In this document: positions 11,740 to 63,020 of the stretch, piece by piece | How the letters are laid out: every line of letters starts with the position of its first letter | Position numbering within the stretch: the first letter of the stretch is position 1 | From: Sipunculus nudus | Lineage: Eukaryota > Annelida > Sipuncula > Golfingiida > Sipunculidae | Reading direction: 5' to 3' | Length of the DNA stretch: 64,000 nucleotides | NCBI GenBank assembly: GCA_026874595.1 | Contig: CM049321.1 | Location: forward strand, 16,191,979 to 16,255,978 | The notes under the pieces: generated by a model | What the model was told of the DNA's origin: nothing | What the model saw: only the letters and a program-made list of their open reading frames with translations | Database searches by the model: none | Position numbers and translations under genes: made by a program

Positions 11740-13040
11740 ATTATAACATTTTTCATAAGTATGTTGCTATGGTTATATGCCAGAACCAATAGCAGATTAA
11801 TGGCAATCAAACACATTCTGAGAGCTGAGGTTCACTAGAAAATGTGGTAACAATTCCTGACGAAAGGGGAAGGGGGGTGGAGAGGTCAATGCTGCCAAAG
11901 AAACTATAGGGTTTACACCTATTTTGAAAGGCTGTCATGCCTTTGATGATTTTCTGATATTACATTGCCATAGCAACGGCCATGAGTTTGCATGATTTGG
12001 CATTAAATAACCTAGATTTCGCTTGTCCTTCTACATGCAGCTTCAAATAGGTATACTTTTACACGTACATAATGTTAATATTTTATTTAGCAACAAATAT
12101 ATGACTTTATTTCAACTATTTCATTGTTATGTTGTCATGGTTACGGGTCACATGATAACAACCACCACCGGATCAATGGCAAACAAGAGGATTCTGATAA
12201 CGAGGTTCCTGGTAGCTGGAAAATGCTATTACAATTACTCTCTCATGTTGGTGTCCATGTTGGCCTATTTTCTTCCATTACGTTGTCATAGCGACGGTCA
12301 TTGTTCTTGACATGGCAGCTTCAAATATGTTTACCTGGACAAGTGAATTATAATATTATTATGATTTGTTTTAAATTTTTAAAATTTACTTGACTATGTA
12401 GTCGTGATAACGGGCCACATGGCCACACCCACCATTAGATTATTGACAAAAAAGCAGATTCCAAAGGCTGTCCTTCCTGGCTAACTAGGAAACGTGGTTT
12501 CAATTAGAGTCTAAAAGGTCAGGGATCCATGCTGGCCCAGAGTCTATATAGACTACCCCTATTTTGTAGGTCTATCATATCTATGGTGACCATTTCTATG
12601 TTGCCATAGCAACGGCTTTGACTTTTGCATGTAGTTGACCTTAAATGAACCAAATCATGTTGTTCATGATTCACCCAAATATAAGAATATATACATGGAC
12701 ACATGGATTTTACTTTGTTGTTGGTACAAATGTTTGATGAACCAAGTCTTAATTTAAATTTACTGGGCAGCTTTAAATACACATTTCTACTAACTTGGAT
12801 TGTGTTTTTAACTTTGGTGTTTAGTTAGAATATGTGTATTTTCTGAAATTCCTTATTTTTTCGAAAGCGTTGCCATGGCAATGCCTTTAGCGCTCACACC
12901 CGCCATCAGTTAATCGGCAAACATACAGAATTTGATAGCTGACCACCCATGCTTACAGGGAAAATGGTGAATACATGCTCGAATGGCGGGGGGGGGGGGG
13001 GGTCGACAACAATTACAAACAGACGGTTGTCCTGTTGCCA
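11740..13040. repeat. Right block of degenerate tandem repeat with X-box-like palindromes
   Basis: About four degenerate units with the same cores as the 6-kb block. Palindromes lie at 11763 (GTTGCTATGGTTAT), 11964 (ATTGCCATAGCAAC), 12131 (GTTGTCATGGTTAC), 12282 (GTTGTCATAGCGAC), 12600 (GTTGCCATAGCAAC) and 12869 (GTTGCCATGGCAAT). Between the two sites of a unit sits a gatcaatggcaaac...attctgata segment. A G-run (about 12987-13002) ends the block. Short frames crossing it have no recognisable product. Confidence 0.75.
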
Positions 13041-13875: not shown

Positions 13876-14772
13876 TCAAGGACATCTGAACATAATCCTG
13901 TAGGCTTTACGTAGGTCACTCTTCTTCCACGCGTAGATGAAGAAATTCAAGGCAGAGTTGGTTTGTCCGAGACTGAATGCAACATTTTGTAAAAACACTT
14001 GAGTCCTTATAGACACCGGCATGGCGATGTGCTTTACAACAACATACGGAGTCCATGCGAGAAAATATGCAACGATGACAAAACCAAGTGTTTTCGTGGC
14101 TTTCATTTCAGACATAAACTTGATTGATCGTAAACATCGGTTCACATTGGTTTCTTTTCGCATCCGTTTAGCCTGTTTATATGCGATTTGATAAACGCGT
14201 AGATACAACAGAAGCATGATAAATCCGTGACCGTAATAGGTTAACACCATAGTCCTCTTTACATATTCCATCGGGATATATCCTTTAACGGCGTAAACGA
14301 TTCCATGGGAAGTAGCAAAGAATACTCCAGTGAAAATCCACGGGAGACTCACAAGGAAACACATCGTTTTCCGTGACATCAAATGTTTATATCTCAGTGG
14401 GTACACCACACATATATAACGTTCAATCGCAATTGTGAACAAATAGTTTAAAGATAAGTGACAGCTTGTTAATAGTAAATACACACCGACTATGTCGCCT
14501 CTGCCCAACGCCATGATCACACAGCGCGCCACCAAAGCGACGCCCACATACAGGTCCGCGCACGAAAGCGCCATAATGAGTATGTTGGTTTTATTCCTGA
14601 GCCAGGCATACTTTAGGACTGCGGCTATAGTAGCACAGTTTCCAATTAGAATGAGAGGAAACAGCAATGATGAAAATATGTAAACTTCGACCTGCGTTTT
14701 CTCTGGAATTAGCGATAACTGCTTGTCCAAGGAGATGTTGTTTACAAGTTGTCCAATCAGATAAACCTTCAT
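13876..14772 (-). CDS. Rhodopsin-family (class A) GPCR, orphan, MECA-like
   Basis: Intact single-exon frame of 298 aa with seven hydrophobic segments, a predicted plasma-membrane receptor. Family marks, in order: N45 in TM1 (IGNC), D73 in TM2 (LSCADL), E117-R118-Y119 ending TM3 (DRY variant), W240-P242-Y243 in TM6 (AWTPY), and N276-Y280 in TM7 (NFFIY for NPxxY, proline replaced by Phe). An N-glycosylation site, NIS at 12-14, lies in the short N-terminus. The start is fixed by an in-frame TAA two codons upstream. Loop 2 has no cysteine for the usual TM3 disulfide, and TM5 lacks the usual proline. Both are known of the melanocortin/EDG/cannabinoid/adenosine cluster, which the TM7 tail (NFFIYAWKKSDLRKAYRIMF) also resembles. 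The ligand is unknown. Confidence 0.9.
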   Translation of the reverse strand: MKVYLIGQLVNNISLDKQLSLIPEKTQVEVYIFSSLLFPLILIGNCATIAAVLKYAWLRNKTNILIMALSCADLYVGVALVARCVIMALGRGDIVGVYLLLTSCHLSLNYLFTIAIERYICVVYPLRYKHLMSRKTMCFLVSLPWIFTGVFFATSHGIVYAVKGYIPMEYVKRTMVLTYYGHGFIMLLLYLRVYQIAYKQAKRMRKETNVNRCLRSIKFMSEMKATKTLGFVIVAYFLAWTPYVVVKHIAMPVSIRTQVFLQNVAFSLGQTNSALNFFIYAWKKSDLRKAYRIMFRCP

Positions 14773-15562
14773 ATTTTATCCAAAATATCGAAACAGCCAC
14801 TTGGAATGCACAGGATACTGTATTGGAACGGTTGTCTAAATTCTGGAGTTTTGCTCACGAGTCCGTTTGGTTTCCCAATCTGCCAGCGTGTCACAAATCA
14901 GCTGATTATACCTGTACCTGAAAGTAATATTTTGAAACGAACCCGTGATTGCATCCTTTAAACGTTGTTTCGATCTAAATGTAACAATAAGCTACCAATA
15001 ATACAAAGTGGAAACTCTGCTAGGAAAGCGCCATCACATAAATAATCAAAGACCCGTTAAAGCTAACTGTGAGGACCAGCTAATGGACCGATAAAATAAA
15101 CCCAAAGGCAGGGAATTTGATTAATTATTCAACGCAGAATCGATAATAAACTTAAGTTCGCCCTTTGTACCGCTGACCATTAGATGATATCCAGGTAAAA
15201 TAATAAAACAGTTACGTTAATATGTGTAGAAGGGCTGTTATTTACATATATGTCAAGAGCGGGCCCTAATGGACGTTGGGGGCGTTATATTATTTGCGTT
15301 CTACTTGAGTGACATGGCGAGGCTTTTAGTGAGTCCTGACGTCATAGGTGTCGAACGCTACGGTTTAATGCACGAATCCCAACAAATAATCTCTGTCCCC
15401 TTTGTGAGAGGCCACAAGGTGTGAACACAAGCCCGCTTACGCCGGTTGGTAATTGTTCCAGATATGACCAGAGAAGGCTTACATAGACATTACCTTTGAT
15501 TAACACTATCCTACAATACACGTACGAAGGTTCTAAAATGTTGGTTTCAGATATGGCCGGAG

Positions 15563-16427
15563 AGTTTTTTTTTTATGAACAAACTTGTTACCATAAACAT
15601 CGCTATCAGTACTATTTGGTTACTGGTGTGTCTTTTGAAATATGCCGGTTTCGTTGTGATGAGTACTCGTACGTAGAATAAAACTTATCGATTATTACTC
15701 AAATTTAGTTTCGTTACAGGCTAAACCATATGTCGGGGAAAAATAATAAGAATGGCTGAGCTAACTTGGTTTTTCAGCGAACGCAAAAAAAAAATGCCTG
15801 GGCTGGACCAGGTAGTATACCCTTTACGCAACGATAACGTTTCTTTTATTATCACTCATTCCGGAATCATAAACGGAACTTCCCGAATGTGCATTTACTT
15901 GTGCACGATTGAACCTGGGAATATGGGCCGAATAAGTGAATGGAAACACGGCTGTAGGTGCATCCCACAAACAGGGAGCACCCTATGGCGGATGGTTGCA
16001 TTCATTAGAATGTAAATTTCTAGTTTTTAACTGTATTGGCTGTTAATGAAATGACATTCCTAGGGATATGGATTGTTTGTTTATCTTGCTTATTCTTAAT
16101 CAGACCATGCGAGTCTAATGATTCTAGGTAGGTAGATTAAGAAAATACAAAGAGATGTATTTTGACTCTGGTATTATCCAAACTAATGATTTGGTAAATT
16201 GTTTTCCATCAGGATATGGAAAACATGTGATAAGGAGCACCATCGCTGTCTGTCATCGCCCAAAAATTAACCACTGTATTCATTCTCTAAATGCACCACT
16301 CATGGCCATTTGCGGGGCGTACCCACTGAACACAGAGCAACAGCGGCAACGCGGACTGCTGGCTGTTGTATATGGCAAAGCCGGCTTTTGTAAGCATTGC
16401 GTAAAAGAATTGAGTTACAATAAATAA
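15563..16427 (+). other. Three small Cys-containing frames, possible WSC/PAN-like exons
   Basis: After acceptor tttcag (about 15562) a frame reads FFYEQTCYHKHRYQYY and then FEICRFRCDEYSYV to 15680. A second frame (15778-16015) contains SRMCIYLCTIEPGN and EWKHGCRCIPQTG. A third, after acceptor ccatcag (about 16212), runs to TAA at 16425 with five or more cysteines and an AATAAA overlapping the stop. The C-x3-C and GCRC patterns recall WSC or PAN modules of secreted proteins. I could not join the pieces in consistent phase, so a gene is not established. Strand is opposite to the GPCR and SET gene on either side. Confidence 0.25.
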
Positions 16428-16545: not shown

Positions 16546-18946
16546 CTAGTGGTAAGTTGACTTTTTAAAATATCTATAAAACAAGACGTAGGGCAGTCCA
16601 AGTTTCCTCGCGTATTCATGGCCATAATATACAAACAGTTCTTGGCCTGGTATTATTCCTGTAATTGATCGATAGTAAATTGTCCCGTGGCAGAAGCGAG
16701 CCTCTAAATTGAGATTATGTGGCTTGACAGCACAGTTTACGTAACGTAGCCATGACGACCTGCTGACGTCATGCCCATCCATTACAGTCTCGAAGTCGTC
16801 GTCTTGCATTATCTGAAAAAAAATACTACGGTGGTATATATATATATATATATATATGATATACATGTGTGTATACACAATCTGTGTGGGGGTGAGTCTG
16901 TGTGTGCATTTGTAAGTACTGCTTTCACCTTATAAAATACCTCATGTAGCTCTCAGAAAATTTGTTCTGCGTGCATATGGGGTAATAATTCGGATGTAAA
17001 TTTGTTCCGCGTGCACAGCCTGATACTGCGTACCAAGCCGGATGTATATGTGAATAAAATTATTCCGCGGAACGTACTTTTCGTTTATATGTATGCAATA
17101 CTCAACCCGATTAACCACAACCAAAGAAATAAACTACTTTTCACACAGTGATCGGTTTACATTCATTGTTTTAAGTAATGATGAATCTACTGGTACTTCA
17201 CATCAGGAATTGTAAGTAGTCCCTCACAGTAGGAAGTCGGGGATTTGAGGAATTGTGTTAATGTAGGTACAAATACGTGATCATTCAAATCACTCGGGGC
17301 CCTAAGAAACCAGATTCACAGCGTTCGGCATTCGAAAGTCTTCTTAAACTACAGTGAAGTCATATGAAAGTCGGTGAACGTTTCTTTGGTTTTCACAGCC
17401 CCGAAACTCCAGAATTCGCTTCCTACTAACCTTAGAAAATATCCGATTCTTACATCATTTTAAACCAATTTAAAAACTTATCTCTTTCGGTAGGTCTTTT
17501 GTTATTAATATACATGTTCTTTGTGAGTTACTATGGATAAAGGAGAAAGAAAGTGGGTTTGGAGAGAGGAACATGGAGTTGGTTTCTTAGAAATTGTGAT
17601 CTGTGAGTACGTGTTTGTGCGTGTATATCATTGTGAATCCGACTATCGGAGAATTGTCGTTATAGAAGTACCATCTATAATTTTCATTATCAGTATTATT
17701 ATTATTATTATCATCATTATTATTATAACTAAAATTTATAAAAATAAAACTAATAATATTGTGGTATCACGCGATTTGCATAATTAATTGGGCGCGGACA
17801 GAAAAGCAATGCCCACAGGCACTGAAAGACTTTAAATATATAAATAGCTTTATAATCCATATAATAATTTCTCTTGGGACTCTGAGATAAAAAAACAATA
17901 TGGTGGCAAAAAGTGAATATGAAATATATGTTTTAGTCTGCGTTCGAGACACAGCGCGGAAATTTGCATGCTTATCAAAAATTAAATGGTGCAGGTAACA
18001 AACACAAAAATGAATAATTTTTCCAAACCTTTAAAGCTACCCATTCACCTACCTTTTGAAAAAAAAATATTTGATTTCTGGCTTCCTCTGTGTATATATT
18101 AATGATCTAAGTGGAGGCAGAAAGGTCACTTGTTGCAAAATGTTATTTGCAAAGGTCTGGCTTATCGGACTTGCCGCCATATGCCTTTTTAGAATTTGTT
18201 TTGATTTTTTGGCGGGCTCCCTTATATTATATACACGTTGATATAAACAAAACAAGCAGCCTGTGTGCAGTTATATCCACGTTTTCTGGCTTATTTTTAT
18301 TAAAGCTGCAAGGGTTAACCCTTTATTTATAAAGGTCAGACAGGTGATTGGGCCCCTTTAGGATTTATGTAAGGCAGTCTAAGCAAGAAAACAAATAAGT
18401 AACATTACGCAGGACCTAATTCTCATTTGCAAAAAAAAAAGTGGGAGCTTCGAATCAGTAGAACAACTATTTATTTTTTATGGCCAAAGCCTACTTTCTT
18501 TATTTAAAATAGACAATCTTACAGCCCACGTGTAGCTCATATCTCTGTCCGATGTCACGTTGGCTTTATTGACGATCTCTCCGGCGTAAGGCCCGAACCA
18601 CGTGTCTGAGGACACAAATATATGAGAGAACACTCCCAATCCAGCTTTACGTACGCTTGAGGGTCGAATCTCAAATCCTGCCGGCAGAGTGCGCAGTGCC
18701 CGATCAGCGATGACGTCAGGTACCTGTATGTCATATACAAAAATGAAACTGTGGTATCTGTCCGTATCGTGAGTCAGAAGGTTTGTATTAGTCACAATAT
18801 TGCAAAATATTTGTGATTTTGATTAACATCGCACTCACATCGTTATTTTGTATCCGCTGATCTTCCCTCGGACAGTCATATCCATACGTTCCCATCGCAG
18901 CCCCTCTGGCGACCATTAACAGAACTAATGAGCTTATCAATTCCAT
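16546..18946 (-). CDS. PRDM7/9-like PR/SET domain protein with N-terminal signal-peptide-like segment
   Basis: Three exons, all phase 0: 18839-18946 (donor GTGAGT), 18523-18723 (acceptor CAG, donor GTAAGA) and 16546-16812 (acceptor tttcag), giving 191 aa. The first ATG follows an in-frame TGA four codons upstream. Residues 1-17 (MELISSLVLLMVARGAA) are hydrophobic like a secretion signal. The PR/SET domain spans about 49-175: LPAGFEIRPS, AGLGVFS, FGPYAGEI, SYTWA, then after the junction FETVMDGHD, WLRYVNCA (the NCA motif), YYRSITGIIPGQELFVYYG with the catalytic-type Tyr, and HEYARKLG. This is the PRDM9-type histone methyltransferase fold in order and near full length. No KRAB, SSXRD or zinc fingers are encoded, and the protein ends about 16 residues after the domain. 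A start at M18 would remove the signal and has the better context. Confidence 0.85.
16835..16860. repeat. (TA)n microsatellite in the PR/SET intron
   Basis: Short TA tract just upstream, in gene sense, of the last PR/SET exon acceptor. Confidence 0.85.
17695..17732. repeat. (ATT)n microsatellite
   Basis: Imperfect ATT/ATC triplets within the large intron of the PR/SET gene. Confidence 0.9.
18035..18265. repeat. Dispersed repeat, copy 1
   Basis: Shares a block (aaagct..ctattc..cttacctttt, then gatttctggcttcctctg, then tatattaatgatct) with 22687-22850 and 49217-49410. A neighbouring phrase (aaacaaaacaagcagcctgtgtgca) recurs at 21320-21360. No ends or coding were defined, so it is an unclassified interspersed repeat. 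Confidence 0.5.
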
Positions 18947-41592: not shown

Positions 41593-43338
41593 ATGGCAAG
41601 GTTACTAATGATATTTGTGTTTTCTGCAGGTAAGTTCGGGCACTAACAGTAGCTTTGACAACAGTTTGTACAGTGAAATATTATTAATACATCCTTTTGA
41701 TAATATTTCCCATCATAGTGACATAGATTAATATAAAATGCATAAAGAATAATATTTGCTTTGAGGTCTTATCTTTTTCAAGGTCAAATAATAAAATTGT
41801 TTATATATCTATATATAAAATATTATAAATAAGTAGGACCTTAGAATGTGTAAGCTTTTATCCATATTAAAAAATTACCTCCAGAATGTATTTTTATTCA
41901 TGTAATTTAAAGTAACAGGATACAGTTCCAAGACATTTCTGGAAAATGCACAGTTTAAACAAATTGGTGAAAGGTGGATGGTCGAAAATCGATGTCACTG
42001 TGTCCTCTACTCAGGTAAGGAATCACCGGTTAAAGTATGCAAACCAAGATAACATTTTAGCAAGAAAACAATATTTCTGTTTAATATAAGGAGACATTTT
42101 AGAGGCCTTTCTCAACACAAGAGTGCGTGGCATATAAGTAAGACTATTGGTAAAATATTAACACTTATGTTCAAAGCAAATTTAAATCCAGGAATTACTT
42201 TAGACAGTTCTGCGGATAAAACAGAACCTTAAAGTTTACTTTATTGTGAAATTGTCTGATAGGTAAAGAAACCTCTTCTTCGAAATTTCAATTCTCATTA
42301 TTAATGGTTAATCACTATCATGCGAGACAGCTTCGTTTTCAATGGTATTAAAATATGTAACTAGAGTGATATAATTTTTATAAATTCTATACAGGCGCTG
42401 CACTGTAAATATATTACATAAATGACAAATAAGAGAAATCAAACGTCCCGTCGTGATAGTAACAATAATATCATCTTTTTTTTGCAAATATTGGCATTTG
42501 TATAACATATGTAAGCACTACAGAACTATCAATTACTGTCATTAAATAGCTGACACATATACTTTTTTAACTGATAAAGTATGCCCATTTGGTTTTGATC
42601 ACTACTTCGCGAGAGGTACGCCTACGGCCAGAGGATGGAGTACACAGTCAAGCTACAAGTTTTTATCGGATGAAAGAGTTACCTGGCAGGCAGCTAGGGA
42701 GAACTGTGCACGATATGGGGCCACCTTGGTAAATATAGAAACTAAGGAGGAGCATATGTATCTCACAGGAACTATTATCAAGAGCATGACCAAATCTCCA
42801 GGTATGGTAAAAAGAGACTACAAAATTCAATGTTGATATCTGAAGAATAAAAATGAACAAATTATAGACATAATGGACTCAGAAAGCATCTCAATTTAAA
42901 TTACATTGCCAATTATGGATTTGTAAAAACTACGGGTTAATTATACCCTTGATTTTTTAAGCAAACTAAACTGTCAAATAAAATATACTGTTTGTAGACA
43001 GCTTCTGGACTTCCGGTTCAGATGCAGAGAGAGAGGGCGTTTGGAAGTGGACAGGAAGTGGCGCCACTGTAAATAAAACGGGATGGGGTCCGAATGAACC
43101 AAACAACAAATATGGAAACCAGGACTGCCTAGTTTTATTAAAGATGTATGATTGGGCCTGGAATGATAACGATTGCAGAGCTCGTTTCCTCAGTGTCTGC
43201 GAAAGGATTGCTCCTTTTAAGGAAGAGGTTTCCCCATCAGATTTGTATAACCTATATGACGGGGAAATAAATTTTAACTTGAAGAAATGCTGGAGACCAA
43301 TTATTTCAGAAATTTTGTTGGGTAGGTCCTTTTTTTAG
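41593..43338 (+). CDS. Gene C: secreted C-type lectin with EPN/WND sites
   Basis: Four exons with consistent phase and GT/AG junctions: 41593-41629, 41919-42014, 42580-42801 and 42998-43338, giving 231 aa. Signal peptide 1-12 (MARLLMIFVFSA). A short N-terminal module (13-44) ends MVENRCHCVLYS and may be a reduced apple-type unit. The CTLD spans about 46-188: VCPFGFDHYF, VTWQAARENCARYGATLVNI, VWKWTGSG, GWGPNEPNN with EPN at 152-154, DCLV, W-N-D at 173-175, and FLSVCER. EPN plus WND is the known calcium/mannose-type site, so binding of mannose- or GlcNAc-type sugars is predicted. A C-terminal tail of about 40 residues contains one Cys and is unique here. This is the clearest intact lectin of the cluster. 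Confidence 0.88.
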
Positions 43339-43989: not shown

Positions 43990-45350
43990 TCAAGTGATTT
44001 GATTTAAAAGGATTTTTTTCCATTTATACAGATGATTTTGCATAACATTATTGTTCTCTGCCACCTTACGCTCAAACAGTTCCATTTTTTGCACATGCTT
44101 CTTAAACAATTGTAACGTTGGAGTGTTCACGTCATTTCGATAGTTGAATATTACAAACTTATAGATTAATAGCAACGTGTCAATAGGGCTTTTATTCTCA
44201 TAATGTTCTGCACAACTTGTATAAATTAACGACTTGCACATATCTGGCATCACAACTCCAGTATCTATAGCCCATTCAATTATCTGTTTATAGAACGAAA
44301 GACTCCTAGTGCATTCACAAAATATATGTGTGATAGTCTCTTCTTCATTTGAACAATACGAGCATTTATTTGTGTCTATTATATATATTATATATAATTG
44401 TATATTATATTTCCATATATACAATTTTTCGTTTACCGATAAAATGTTATGAAGAATCCTGTACCGGAATTGCCTTAAATACATATCAAGCGTGACAGAA
44501 TAAACATGATTTACTGCTTGTTTCCAAGTGGTGTTTTGGTTCAACACAGTTTCTACTTTTTCTTTATTTGGTGGATCGCACACCTTTTTCTGGCACAGTT
44601 TTCCATACAGCCATTTAAAGCCAAATTTCTGGCATCTAAAACCACTTCTTCTAAGAAAGAAACTTCCCATAACATCAATTTTATCCGCTTTGTCTGGTAT
44701 TTTGTTATTCTTTATCACACATTTCCATTCCGTCGGTATCGCATGCATAATAGAAAGGTAGTGAATATAACATTTATTGTAATATTTTGATAAAATATCT
44801 GCCAATCGTCGTTAAGTTCCATTATTTTAAACAATTGGAATAAATATTTTATATTTTAGGTCATTCATAAACTTGTTATAAACCGTCTTACCTCCAACCT
44901 GAATATATTTATTGTTCCATAGCTGCTGTAAACATATATCTACAACTCCTTTTGGGCTTTTTGAAGTAAAATAAGCCCATTACTTCAAACAATGACAATA
45001 CAATTTTGTCATTTTTCCTTCAATTAATCCCAGATCGAAATTTGCACCAATATTATCTATGCCCCGGATATTCCAGAAATACAAGTTTGGGATCGAAGCA
45101 AAATTTGTGTTTGTTAAATTCTTTAATCTGCAAATCCACATAATTCTCTAACCATCTAATATTGTTTCTATATCAGGTAATTTTAAACCTCAACTTTCCA
45201 TATCACGGATTAATACTTCATATTTAATTTTTGGTTTTCTTCCAAACCATATAAAAGCCGAGCAGTTCTCATCGAAAGATAAATATCTTACCCAAACAAT
45301 AGGAATCTCAACCGAATGTCGTATATTTTGAAGCTGGGGTAATGACCTCA
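43990..45350 (-). mobile_element. 5'-truncated non-LTR retrotransposon (L1/Tx1-like LINE), 3' end of ORF2
   Basis: The 3' part is an open 271-codon frame (43990-44805) with the RT-type zinc-binding module CSYCSNEEETITHIFCEC and the preceding FRYRILHNILSVNEKLYIWK. Upstream the same strand shows VEIPIVWVRYLSFDENCSAF, FIWFGRKPKIKYEVLIRDME and LPDIE. That region, after the RT core, is typical of L1/Tx1 ORF2, but here it is interrupted by stops. The polymerase core is absent. It is a dead 5'-truncated copy between genes C and D. Confidence 0.8.
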
Positions 45351-48516: not shown

Positions 48517-50683
48517 ATGTCAGCGAGTACATCCAAAATCACTGGAGCCTTTATTCTCCTTTGGTCGTGTAATGCCATTTACGCCCGTTTGTATTTTTTT
48601 TTAAATGAATTTATGATTTTGGTAAACAAATATTGTTAAATAATGTTATCCTTACCCCGAGAATTTTTCATATTTAAATCATGTATCACAAATTGAATGG
48701 AGAGAACCTGATTCATACTAAATTATTTATTTTTGGCATTATGTTGATGTAGATACTCTGATATCTCACATCGGAACTGTGTTCATCATATTTATTGCAT
48801 TAGTGTCAATTTTCTTTATAATTTTATTCCTTCAACAATATGCACAGGCAGAAATAAATTCATTATGTTACACAAGGTCTTATTTGACGTACAATGTTTA
48901 CGACCTAATATCTGCCGATTACAAAGTAACATTATTAAAGATATTTATAAATTTTATTTTAGTGGTGTGCGAGCGTGCTGTCTACTCAGGGTACCAATAT
49001 ACTTCAAATGTAGTAATCAAGCACATCTTCAAAATACCAATGTCCAGACCAGAATGTATGGACCTATGTAGAAGACAAGAGATTCCCAGTTGTACTGGTG
49101 TTTACGTTAGGAACAACCTTTGTATTCTTAACAACACCCAACGACCACTACGTCTTCCTGCTAACGACACAACAGAGTTGTCAGGTACTTGAAATATCAA
49201 AAAAGCGTCATTCCATTTAAAACCAGCTATTCGTTTATCTTTCATGTAGAATCAAAATGATTGCTAGCTTACTTTGCGTATATATTAATACGCTCTGGAC
49301 ACTTGTTAAGAAATGTTCTTATAACGCATCTCTGGTGTAGGTAAAACCTTCTTCGTCAACTAGCTATTAGTAAACACCTTATATGCAACAATGTTTGCGA
49401 ACATAAAAAAATATAGCCTTGGGTGGGTGCGGAAGCTGAAAGTTTACCTGTTGCAACGCGCACTGTGCAAAACTATTTATCATCTGCCTTACCGCTAGAT
49501 GTCTTTGGTGAATGTATATGAATTATTTTGTGAGCCCACTTGTTATTAATCCATAAATATAACAAAATCGAACCATCTACTGTATATGCCCTTTTTATAT
49601 GTAAAATAACCAATAATAGGTCCTTTTGACTCTACAGCAATGAATTCTAATCTATATAGGTAGCAGGGCTTGTTATATATTAGAATATCCCTGGGTAAAG
49701 AATCCACTCGTATCCTTTTGTTATGCATAATTCCATTGAAATGGAACAAAGGAAAATGTATGTGATGGTAAAGAAAATGTTGTAAGTTATGTTTTTGTTT
49801 GTTTGTTTATATCGTAGTTTGTCCCCCTGGATTCGCTTTCTATTTCGTAAAAGGCACAAAAGGTACTGTGAGTTTAAAACCACAGCCATCCTGCTATAAT
49901 TTCAATCAAGATACAAGGTATACCTTTCCAATGGCTGACAAATATTGTGAACATCATGGGGCCGCCCTGGTCAGTATAGAAACGGCAGAGGAACAAACAC
50001 ATATAAAAAGAATAATCAACTCGGACAAAGAGTTGAAATCAAGAGGTAACAAATAACGCCCTTTAATTAAATATCCTTTACATGAGGTTGCTTATTAGTT
50101 GAATCTCAGTTGATCTAAATAAGTTCAGGTTTATCCTGGTATCACACCATGATACTAGCTTTTATAATTTGATACGATGCATGTACAATAGTGGAGGTTA
50201 CAAGCTCAGTAACCGATTGACAAGAATTTAATTTTCTGGGGGATTTTGCAATGTTATTTGTTTGAGTAGTAATAAATATTACATTAATCATAGTGTGTAA
50301 AGCAAACTAATCATATTCTTATAAACCTGGACAAATACAATATAAACATATACTGTCCTATAATAACATATGACCGGTTTTTATATTATTGGCTCCCAGC
50401 TCCCCTTTTCATGAATAGTATACTTCTGTTAATTCGCTGCTCAAGGTTTCATTTCTTTCAGATAAATTTTGGAATTTCGCCTCCGAGGCAGTCTCAGAAG
50501 GACTTTGGAGGTGGACAGGAACTGGTGAACTCTTATGGTTTACTGCATGTTCACTTGGTGAAGCCTAATAACAGGGGCGGCTCACAACACTGTTCAGTGT
50601 TGTAACGTGACCGAAGATGGACCTGGGACGACGAACAGTGTAGTGACAGTTACTTTGCTGTCTGTGAAATAAATGCCCAGTGA
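48517..50683 (+). pseudogene. Gene D: signal peptide + apple domain + CTLD, broken in the last exon
   Basis: A signal-peptide exon begins at 48517 (MSASTSKITGAFILLWSCNA); its exact donor is uncertain (GTAATG at 48573 or GTTTGT). Exon 48963-49184 is an apple/PAN module (VCERAVYSG, RPECMDLCRRQEIPSCTGVY, NNLCIL). Exon 49818-50045 is the first CTLD half (VCPPGFAFYF, PSCYNF, ADKYCEHHGAALVSIETAEE). Both are phase 1-1 and intact. The last exon (from 50462) starts DKFWNFASEAVSEGLWRWTG. One extra G then interrupts the codons of the GEPNN motif near 50563, and a TAA follows CSVL. Out-of-frame WTWDDEQCSDSYFAVCEI shows the ancestral end. The upstream exons look normal, so the loss seems recent, or a truncated product could still be made. 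Confidence 0.8.
49217..49410. repeat. Dispersed repeat, copy 3, in gene D intron
   Basis: Related to 18035-18265 and 22687-22850 (ccagctattcgtttatcttt ... attgctagcttactttgcgt, then tatattaatacgctct). Confidence 0.5.
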
Positions 50684-61275: not shown

Positions 61276-62037
61276 TTATTCACAAAGTATACTAAATTCA
61301 AAGTGGCATTCTACGTTGAACCAGTAGTTCCTTGTAAGGGGATTGAGAACTGAGCATTTCGCCATCAAAGCATAGGCTCTCCAGGACACCAATTGTTGTA
61401 TTCCAACCGTTTTCCGTTGAAGCCCAGTACCAATCCTTTGTTTTTGGACTCAACGAAAGGGAAAGCCAGTGGAAACTCACTGATCCTAGGGAATACCACG
61501 TTATATTATACCAATATCGAAAAACTGCTGCTCGTTATTCAGTATAATCACTCTTCATCTTAATAAACCCTTTTTAAACTAACATTTATGTGAGATTTAA
61601 TTTTGTGTATTTTTCATAGGTCGTCCGATCTTTTTATATTAACAAAGGACGATCAACTTACATATAACAAATAAAAGTTAATTTGAATATATCTATTAAT
61701 TTGATGATGGTTAATTACCGGTTCATTACACTTTGAAGGCAAAAGAATACGAGATATTCGATTTTCTCATCATTCTATTGTATGTTCAGTTTTACTTGAT
61801 TCTCCTTTTGTCTGGTTTATTATGAAACCTTAAACAATAAAACCCACAAACTGTCTTTGCAAGTAAGCTTTAGGAAGATTAAAGCTTTATACAGGTTTTC
61901 TAATAATTAAAAATGAAGTTACGGTGTCCATATATGATATTTGCCACATGCGTTTGTTCATTCTCAGATTCTATACTCATTAGGTATCCGTTCTTCTCCT
62001 TGCATACTTTGTCAGCTGATGCCCAGTTGTAAAAGTC
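61276..62037 (-). pseudogene. Gene F: minus-strand CTLD with frameshifted last exon
   Basis: Exon 61923-62037 (acceptor gagcag, phase 0 to 1, donor GTAACT) reads DFYNWASADKVCKEKNG, then YLMSIESENEQTHVANI. It is intact and equivalent to gene A's 31594 exon. Exon 61276-61485 (acceptor ccctag) starts VSFHWLSLSLSPKTKDWYWA. It then needs two frame changes to reach EYNNWCPGEPM and KCSVLNPLTRNYWFNVECHF, ending SILCE and TAA at 61276. The EPN position reads EPM. The second exon is broken, so the gene is a recent pseudogene. The first CTLD piece (C-x-x-G-F ... SCY) and the signal and PAN exons were not found upstream. Confidence 0.75.
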
Positions 62038-62049
62038 CTGCTCGCGTGA

Positions 62050-63020
62050 AGGAATAGAAAAAGTATGATTTGGTTTAAATAAGATCAGAGATACTTTTGA
62101 GGCAGTGTTCAGGACGAAAATGCACTTGGTAAAGAATATGGTATGAAACCTTATTATGGTATTAAAATTCCTGAATCTCTGATGCCCTGTTGAGATTTCA
62201 CTAAATCCCATGATGTTTGTAATCCAGAGAGAACCGCAACCCACCAGAGCTGAAATCCTTTGCCTTACTCACCTGGCTACGCTATTATACAAAAACAAGC
62301 CACATATTTAAGTAAGACTTATTATAAGATGATGATAACTTAGGTATAACAAACATAATATAAAAATTATATTTGTGCTTTATAAAAGAATTTATTGCAT
62401 ATAATTTAAACAGCAATACAGGCTGTATGTAATCCTATATTCAATATTTAAGTACCGTATTAATTTTATCTCTGTACATATATGCATATCATAAAAAACC
62501 GCGATTTTTAAAACTGCGAATTAAAAAAGGTGCTCTTTGAATAATAACCGCAGAAGGGAAATATTTAAGTGTTTAAGGTGCTTAGAGGGGAAAAACGATA
62601 TCCAACTTTCTGTCATAGGAACATAATGCGGAAACAACTGAAGTGGTTAAAAAGGGTTACACAAATTTCATTTGCGCTAAAGTAGATTCCCACAATATTC
62701 AGAGAGACCTTGAATTTGTGCAATCTAAAAGGTTGCACTAAATCCTTCGATATCAAATGAACAGGCGTGTTTAGTTATCAGGAATTCATCACTTGCTTGT
62801 AGTATACTACACACATGACTGGCTTATTCCATTACTGCATTCTGCCCTATTTGTTTCTCATATAACATTATATTGTAGACAAGAGTAAGGACTATTGTCC
62901 AATATTAAAGCATAATGCCGCGATAACTGCTAATTTAATGTTAATTCTGTTCTGATTGGATGTATTCACCCGAGTAACTTTTGTTAGGATAATATTCCAG
63001 TGATAACGATGGCATACTTT
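62050..63020. other. Intergenic, no recognisable gene
   Basis: AT-rich. The open frame upstream of gene F's first exon continues to 62244 but only through intron-like sequence before the acceptor. Confidence 0.5.

Follow-up and report, generated by a model that had tools for sequence, protein, structure and literature searches.

The question raised by this locus is whether a PRDM9-type SET protein can have lost its zinc fingers and acquired a secretion leader, since SET enzymes are usually regarded as nuclear or cytosolic. The gene lies on the minus strand of the window, by which we mean the whole 64-kb stretch of DNA that was analysed (C16:16191979-16255978, in a searched genome of 1.43 Gb and 153 contigs). 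A first-pass annotation had described it as a complete PR/SET domain in three exons, preceded by a signal-like segment and without zinc fingers nearby.

The gene model was confirmed. Exon 1 (minus strand, 18946-18839, residues 1-36) carries the leader-like hydrophobic run, followed by DCP and the phase-0 donor GTGAGT, and has a counterpart exon in 18 paralogs. Exon 2 (minus strand, 18723-18523, residues 37-103) encodes the N-terminal half of the PR/SET domain, and exon 3 (minus strand, 16812-16546, residues 104-191 and TAG) its C-terminal half. The three proposed phase-0 exons give 191 codons and a TAG, each exon having GT/AG borders and a length that is a multiple of 3, and the chance of 191 open codons is ca 8e-7 at the base composition of the window. 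The in-frame stop upstream was also recovered, as a TGA four codons before M1. When all GT and AG sites of the window are scored with generic splice matrices, the donors of the gene fall within the best 1.3% and 8.5% and its acceptors within the best 13.2% and 2.1%. The closest downstream AATAAA is at 15850, ca 700 bases beyond the stop.

The completeness of the PR/SET domain is upheld by both profile and PDB sequence matches. In Pfam, PRDM2_PR (PF21549) covers residues 54-176 with 6.7e-31 and SET (PF00856) is found with 8.7e-8, while the PDB sequence search places PRDM9 first (4c1q, E 1.3e-23, residues 43-176), followed by PRDM14, 12, 1, 2 and 11. With a profile built from 17 members of the family described below, PRDM9 is again at the top (2.2e-34), and the matches reach EHMT2, EZH2 and KMT2-type enzymes. 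Two other sources of relatives were considered and discarded. The matches to an NCBIfam bacterial SET-effector model are weak, lie far under the cut-off and reflect the SET fold, and none of the candidates in viral contigs (1 pattern-matching stretch) or prokaryote genomes (19) was confirmed.

The reported absence of zinc fingers near the SET exons was borne out by tblastn and a C2H2 regex search of the window. Over its whole length, the regex gave no match on the plus strand and a single one on the minus strand, at 13020, which is proline-rich, of low complexity and not credible. A tblastn search of the 64 kb gave no second PR/SET exon; a weak match at 15836-15738 (E 0.014), considered as a second copy, contains a stop and was taken as chance.

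As to the neighbours, a single-exon frame of a rhodopsin-type GPCR (13879-14775, minus strand, 7tm_1 3.4e-23) has the same orientation as the SET gene and follows it downstream at a distance of 1.8 kb. C-type lectin exons are located more than 23 kb away from the SET gene, those at 42546-42833 and 42982-43335 (plus strand) above the Pfam cut-off and those at 49772-50053 (plus strand) and 61903-62268 (minus strand) just under it. An open frame of 273 residues (43993-44811, minus strand) with a weak zf-RVT match under the cut-off is probably a retrotransposon remnant.

We now turn to the leader of the window gene. Hydrophobicity scoring places the run LISSLVLLMVA at residues 3-13 (minus strand, 18908..18940). 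With M1 as the start, a 9-residue hydrophobicity of 2.73 is obtained and a permitted -3/-1 cleavage site is present; the net charge ahead of the run is -1, and Arg14 stands immediately behind it. In a set of 1129 random ATG frames, h>=2.5 occurs in 8.9%, and in 6.0% it is combined with a cleavage site. The hydrophobic segment noticed in the first-pass annotation is thus present, but taken alone it is little above chance. M1 has a poor start context, with C at -3 and G at +4, and M18 a better one, with G at both positions. For a use of two starts, M1 for a signal form and M18 for a cytoplasmic one, as suggested in the first-pass annotation, the paralogs gave no indication. An acceptor inside the leader is also possible. 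One before 18905 is among the best 11% of AG sites, and one before 18924, whose phase is that of the paralogs, scores poorly (top 69%); for the latter, there are five candidate Met-bearing upstream exons within 4 kb, which is the number expected by chance. Since the leader of the window gene is weak alone, the real evidence comes from the leader-like exon that is common to 19 of 23 loci of the same genome.

The genome contains at least 48 matches to PF21549 and at least 55 to the window protein. Among 55 rows of the latter, 29 were sorted by hand as exon-3-type, and six of these loci were left out (three zinc-finger PRDM9-type loci on C17, two loci on C7 and one on C6). The SET-only family comprises at least 23 loci, with the window gene included. 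On C16, there are 16 at 48.18-48.52 Mb, two at 29.0 Mb, one at 3.5 Mb and the window gene itself; C5 carries one locus and C12 two. The loci compared below are the window gene and the DNA of 22 paralogs. No C2H2 finger was found within ca 2.2 kb downstream in any of the 12 paralog loci scanned at that depth; six further paralogs were scanned over 155-283 bases only, and four were outside the scan.

The large cluster displays both gain and decay. L028 and L035 (C16:48.284-48.288 Mb) are adjacent copies with an identical exon 2 peptide, and the nearby L031 has an early stop in exon 3, ahead of the catalytic Tyr. Three stops are present in a copy at C16:48384669, which came from the PF21549 search only and is outside the 22 paralogs compared.

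A shared exon upstream of the SET exons was recognised by peptide similarity, with no motif required, in L016, L020, L021, L024, L027 and L028. Its layout is a hydrophobic stretch, then DCP or NCP, then a phase-0 donor. Once the CP motif and a passable donor are required, the exon is found in 19 of the 23 loci, a count in which the CP is partly a product of the search, since the motif was a search condition. It was not found in L029, L031, L035 and L036, for two of which the upstream DNA covered only 0.6 kb (L031) and 1.2 kb (L035). Examples of the leaders are MYKLLGVIAVLSLVKAQS (L015), MAAAHFSRFLLTGALYLTITPFAQ (L020) and MRHVTRTVLAHVTLFSLLAVQS (L034).

A 7-residue hydrophobic mean of at least 1.9 is reached by 12 of the 19 leader segments, compared to 6% of stretches from the mature part, and a mean of 1.6 by 18 of them, compared to 12%; here the segments were cut by hand, the threshold of 1.6 was chosen after the values had been seen, and the members are related, so that the counts are not independent. 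A hydrophobic run is missing only from the L037 segment (0.24). For the leader DNA, the pooled pN/pS is 0.50 over eight pairs, some of which share members, and the differences at the three codon positions are 47/29/64, although pN is slightly higher than pS in the pairs L020/L021 and L034/L038. As judged by these substitutions, the leader segments evolve like coding DNA. Enrichment of N-glycosylation sequons was considered as another support for secretion and was dropped, as 11 sequons are observed in the 19 rows compared to 13.2 expected.

It is important to point out that the start codons are less clear. In 10 of 17 loci the top-ranked acceptor is a phase-1 site inside the hydrophobic run or at its edge, which means that the start codon would have to lie in an exon 0 further upstream. 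In L017, L025, L026, L027 and L034 a different acceptor scores as well or better, in some cases downstream of the run, and where such a site is used the run would be intronic at that locus. Exon 0 is best supported in L020/L021, with a donor score of 11.8, 96 bases upstream and alike in both, and is possible in L015 and L023; apart from the L020/L021 pair, single-locus models of this exon are weak, because many loci give several chance candidates. For 11 of the 19 leader-exon loci no convincing exon 0 with a start codon was identified, and similarity between paralogs gave nothing convincing in 12 pairs. In L019, L034 and L038, on the other hand, Met and leader are within one exon. The Met-led leaders amount to eight of 19, the window gene counted, and these eight models have h values of 1.93-3.02, a permitted cleavage site and an uncharged run of 9-15 residues.

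The same genome has three closely similar zinc-finger PRDM9-type genes, L009, L010 and L011 (C17:43.37, 45.81 and 43.27 Mb), with dS values of 0.18-0.24, possibly a recent duplication of PRDM9. They have 7, 10 and 11 C2H2 regex matches downstream, respectively, and a zinc-knuckle exon, for example CEICMEEYLSECPDHPLIIIKDAE, directly before the phase-0 intron, that is, at the place of the leader exon. A scan of the 5 kb upstream of exon 2 found one zinc knuckle in each of the three genes and none in the 13 SET-only loci included (the window gene and 12 paralogs). In the alignment, CP in the leader exon falls opposite the ECPDH of the zinc-knuckle exon, and the leader exon may be a zinc-knuckle exon whose front half turned into a leader.

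The alignments also single out two cysteines. Cys25 of the CP motif (minus strand, 18872..18874) is the residue that aligns with the ECPDH cysteine of L009-L011, and its proposed partner is Cys144 in exon 3 (minus strand, 16690..16692). A cysteine at the latter position is found in all 23 loci; human and mouse PRDM9 have Tyr there, and L009-L011 have a cysteine one position further on. Exactly two cysteines are present from CP to the end in 10 of 17 leader-exon models, the remaining ones having three to six. The putative Cys25-Cys144 disulfide would fit an oxidising compartment. In L023 (C16:3.48 Mb), the part from CP onwards contains six cysteines, of which two lie in a C-terminal tail that is longer than in the other members, and the extra ones could possibly form additional disulfides.

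In the active site, Tyr166 (minus strand, 16624..16626) is aligned with Tyr357 of PRDM9, whose catalytic role is described in PMC4919437. This Tyr is found in 22 of the 23 loci, the exception being L031, which is truncated before it, and the GxG, Asn, EL and Tyr motif columns are invariant among 17 aligned members. The NCA motif is kept in four of the 23 loci, with NNA in two and NGA or NGG in 17. Compared to PRDM9, the window protein has Val for Arg in NCAR and His for Asp in YGDEY.

Next, we consider selection. The dN/dS ratios are 0.08-0.26 in nine of 11 family pairs (0.15-0.26 in eight, 0.08 in one), these ratios being rough as dS exceeds 1 in several pairs; the other two pairs have saturated dS and give no ratio. 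The paralog pairs show purifying selection at the level of these ratios, and the window gene is outside them. For the three PRDM9-type pairs the values are 0.58, 0.25 and 0.22, with exon 3 read past a likely donor. The window gene has a best paralog identity of 41% and a branch length of 1.41, and since it has no close paralog, a selection rate can be obtained from the paralog pairs only.

An unrooted tree separates a group made of the window gene plus 20 SET-only rows (L031 and L035 omitted) from PRDM9, 12, 14 and L009-L011 with a support of 96/88. A second tree with 17 SET-only rows, in which PRDM1 replaces PRDM12, gives the same split (95/88). The AU test speaks against a tree in which the window gene groups with the PRDM9 rows (p 0.029, for a group that was named after the tree had been seen). 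The exact place of the window gene is unsure owing to its long branch, and it is best explained as a divergent, early-branching member of the family.

On the basis of these sequence comparisons, we propose, with moderate confidence, that the locus belongs to a family of PRDM9-type SET proteins that lack fingers, enter the secretory pathway, are perhaps braced by a disulfide and are most likely SAM-binding lysine methyltransferases. The hydrophobic leader, encoded at the place of the zinc-knuckle exon of PRDM9, would send the chain into the ER and be cut off after entry. The mature protein would be little more than one SET domain, perhaps with the Cys25-Cys144 brace, and would bind SAM and methylate lysines of secretory or extracellular proteins, either in the Golgi lumen or after secretion. 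SAM binding and lysine methylation appear most likely because the SET motif residues and the catalytic Tyr are kept, while the supply of SAM in the lumen is an assumption of the proposal. The idea of a secreted or luminal SET protein without fingers is supported, as the paralogs share its anatomy (no fingers in 12 of 12, a leader-like exon in 19 of 23), with secretion as the predicted part. A more far-reaching version, which we put forward tentatively as a possibility that is rather doubtful, is that the PRDM9 methyltransferase domain gave rise to a multigene family whose products are secreted lysine methyltransferases, braced by a disulfide and acting on secretory or extracellular proteins, in which the fingers would have been lost, the zinc-knuckle exon converted into a signal-peptide exon and a zinc-ligand cysteine reused for the disulfide.

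The main doubts are whether the protein is an enzyme, where SAM would come from and which exons carry the start. The first two bear on the possibility of a secreted non-enzyme, in which the SET fold is a binding module, for example in immune or gamete recognition, with the SAM residues kept for stability. Tandem expansion, with 16 of the 23 loci in one cluster, would be in line with this, as would the replacement of NCA in most loci, and free SAM is expected to be scarce outside the cytosol. However, the invariance of the GxG, Asn and EL columns and the near-universal catalytic Tyr, absent only from a truncated copy, speak for an enzyme, and we consider the binding-module option unlikely. The doubt about the start exons concerns a nuclear or cytosolic finger-less methyltransferase, with the run incidental or untranslated and the start at M18 or in an upstream exon. 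Such a protein exists in C. elegans, where SET-17 is found in nuclear foci (PMC5942854), and the context of M18, the fraction of random frames that match the leader score and the fact that exon 0 is convincing in only part of the family are all compatible with it. The leader-like exon of the 19 loci, its hydrophobicity kept in 18 of them with coding-type substitutions, and the cysteine pattern of the family are not readily accommodated, which makes this option quite unlikely, somewhat more so than the binding module.

Two further options are much less probable. The long branch of the window gene, its low identity to the best paralog and the stops in L031 and at C16:48384669 could suggest that the window copy is itself decaying or unexpressed, but the 191 open codons and good splice sites make this very improbable. 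Least probable of all is that the hydrophobic segment is not a cleaved signal peptide but anchors the protein in a membrane or serves as a mitochondrial presequence. These cases cannot be told apart from a short hydrophobic N-terminus by itself, but the uncharged runs of the eight Met-led models are short for an anchor and are followed by a -3/-1 site.

If the preferred reading, a secretory family of finger-less SET methyltransferases, is true, it would raise the issue of lysine methylation in that pathway and of the delivery of SAM to it. It would also show how secreted proteins can arise from a meiotic recombination gene, through finger loss, exon conversion and a new disulfide. In the open-licence literature we found no report of such a family or of secreted or extracellular SET or lysine methyltransferases, nor of a secreted molluscan PRDM9, and an earlier notice of the SET-only expansion may exist. 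Of two other sources, PMC5549309 was set aside, as its available text concerns immunoglobulin set domains, and PMC5519329 contains none of the invertebrate or mollusc terms that were sought.

Finally, the family can be compared with known systems. Finger loss alone is already known. The C. elegans SET-17 protein has a PRDM9/7-type SET domain without KRAB or fingers, but it is nuclear, in foci of sperm precursor cells, and the available part of the report mentions no secretion leader (PMC5942854). Finger-less Prdm9 is described for opossum and C. elegans, while 23 fingers are given for the snail Lottia (PMC2779102). Opossum Prdm9 and the short mouse isoforms, which apparently are not nuclear, likewise have a SET domain without C-terminal fingers; they are, however, single genes or isoforms, with no leader or tandem family mentioned in the accessible text (PMC2779102). 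In the clam Mulinia lateralis, 11 PRDMs were surveyed, and the part of the survey at hand does not mention a secreted SET-only family; its Ml-PRDM9 shares the PRDM9-type PR domain but has 710 residues and ten fingers (PMC10451705). PRDM9/PRDM7 and L009-L011 have the PR/SET domain and the catalytic Tyr in common with the family, and L009-L011 also its phase-0 introns before exons 2 and 3. Yet the PRDM9-type genes, both of vertebrates and L009-L011, have an upstream zinc knuckle and downstream C2H2 fingers and no leader, whereas the family has neither knuckle nor fingers nearby and carries, within its SET domain, a cysteine at the position of a Tyr in human and mouse PRDM9.
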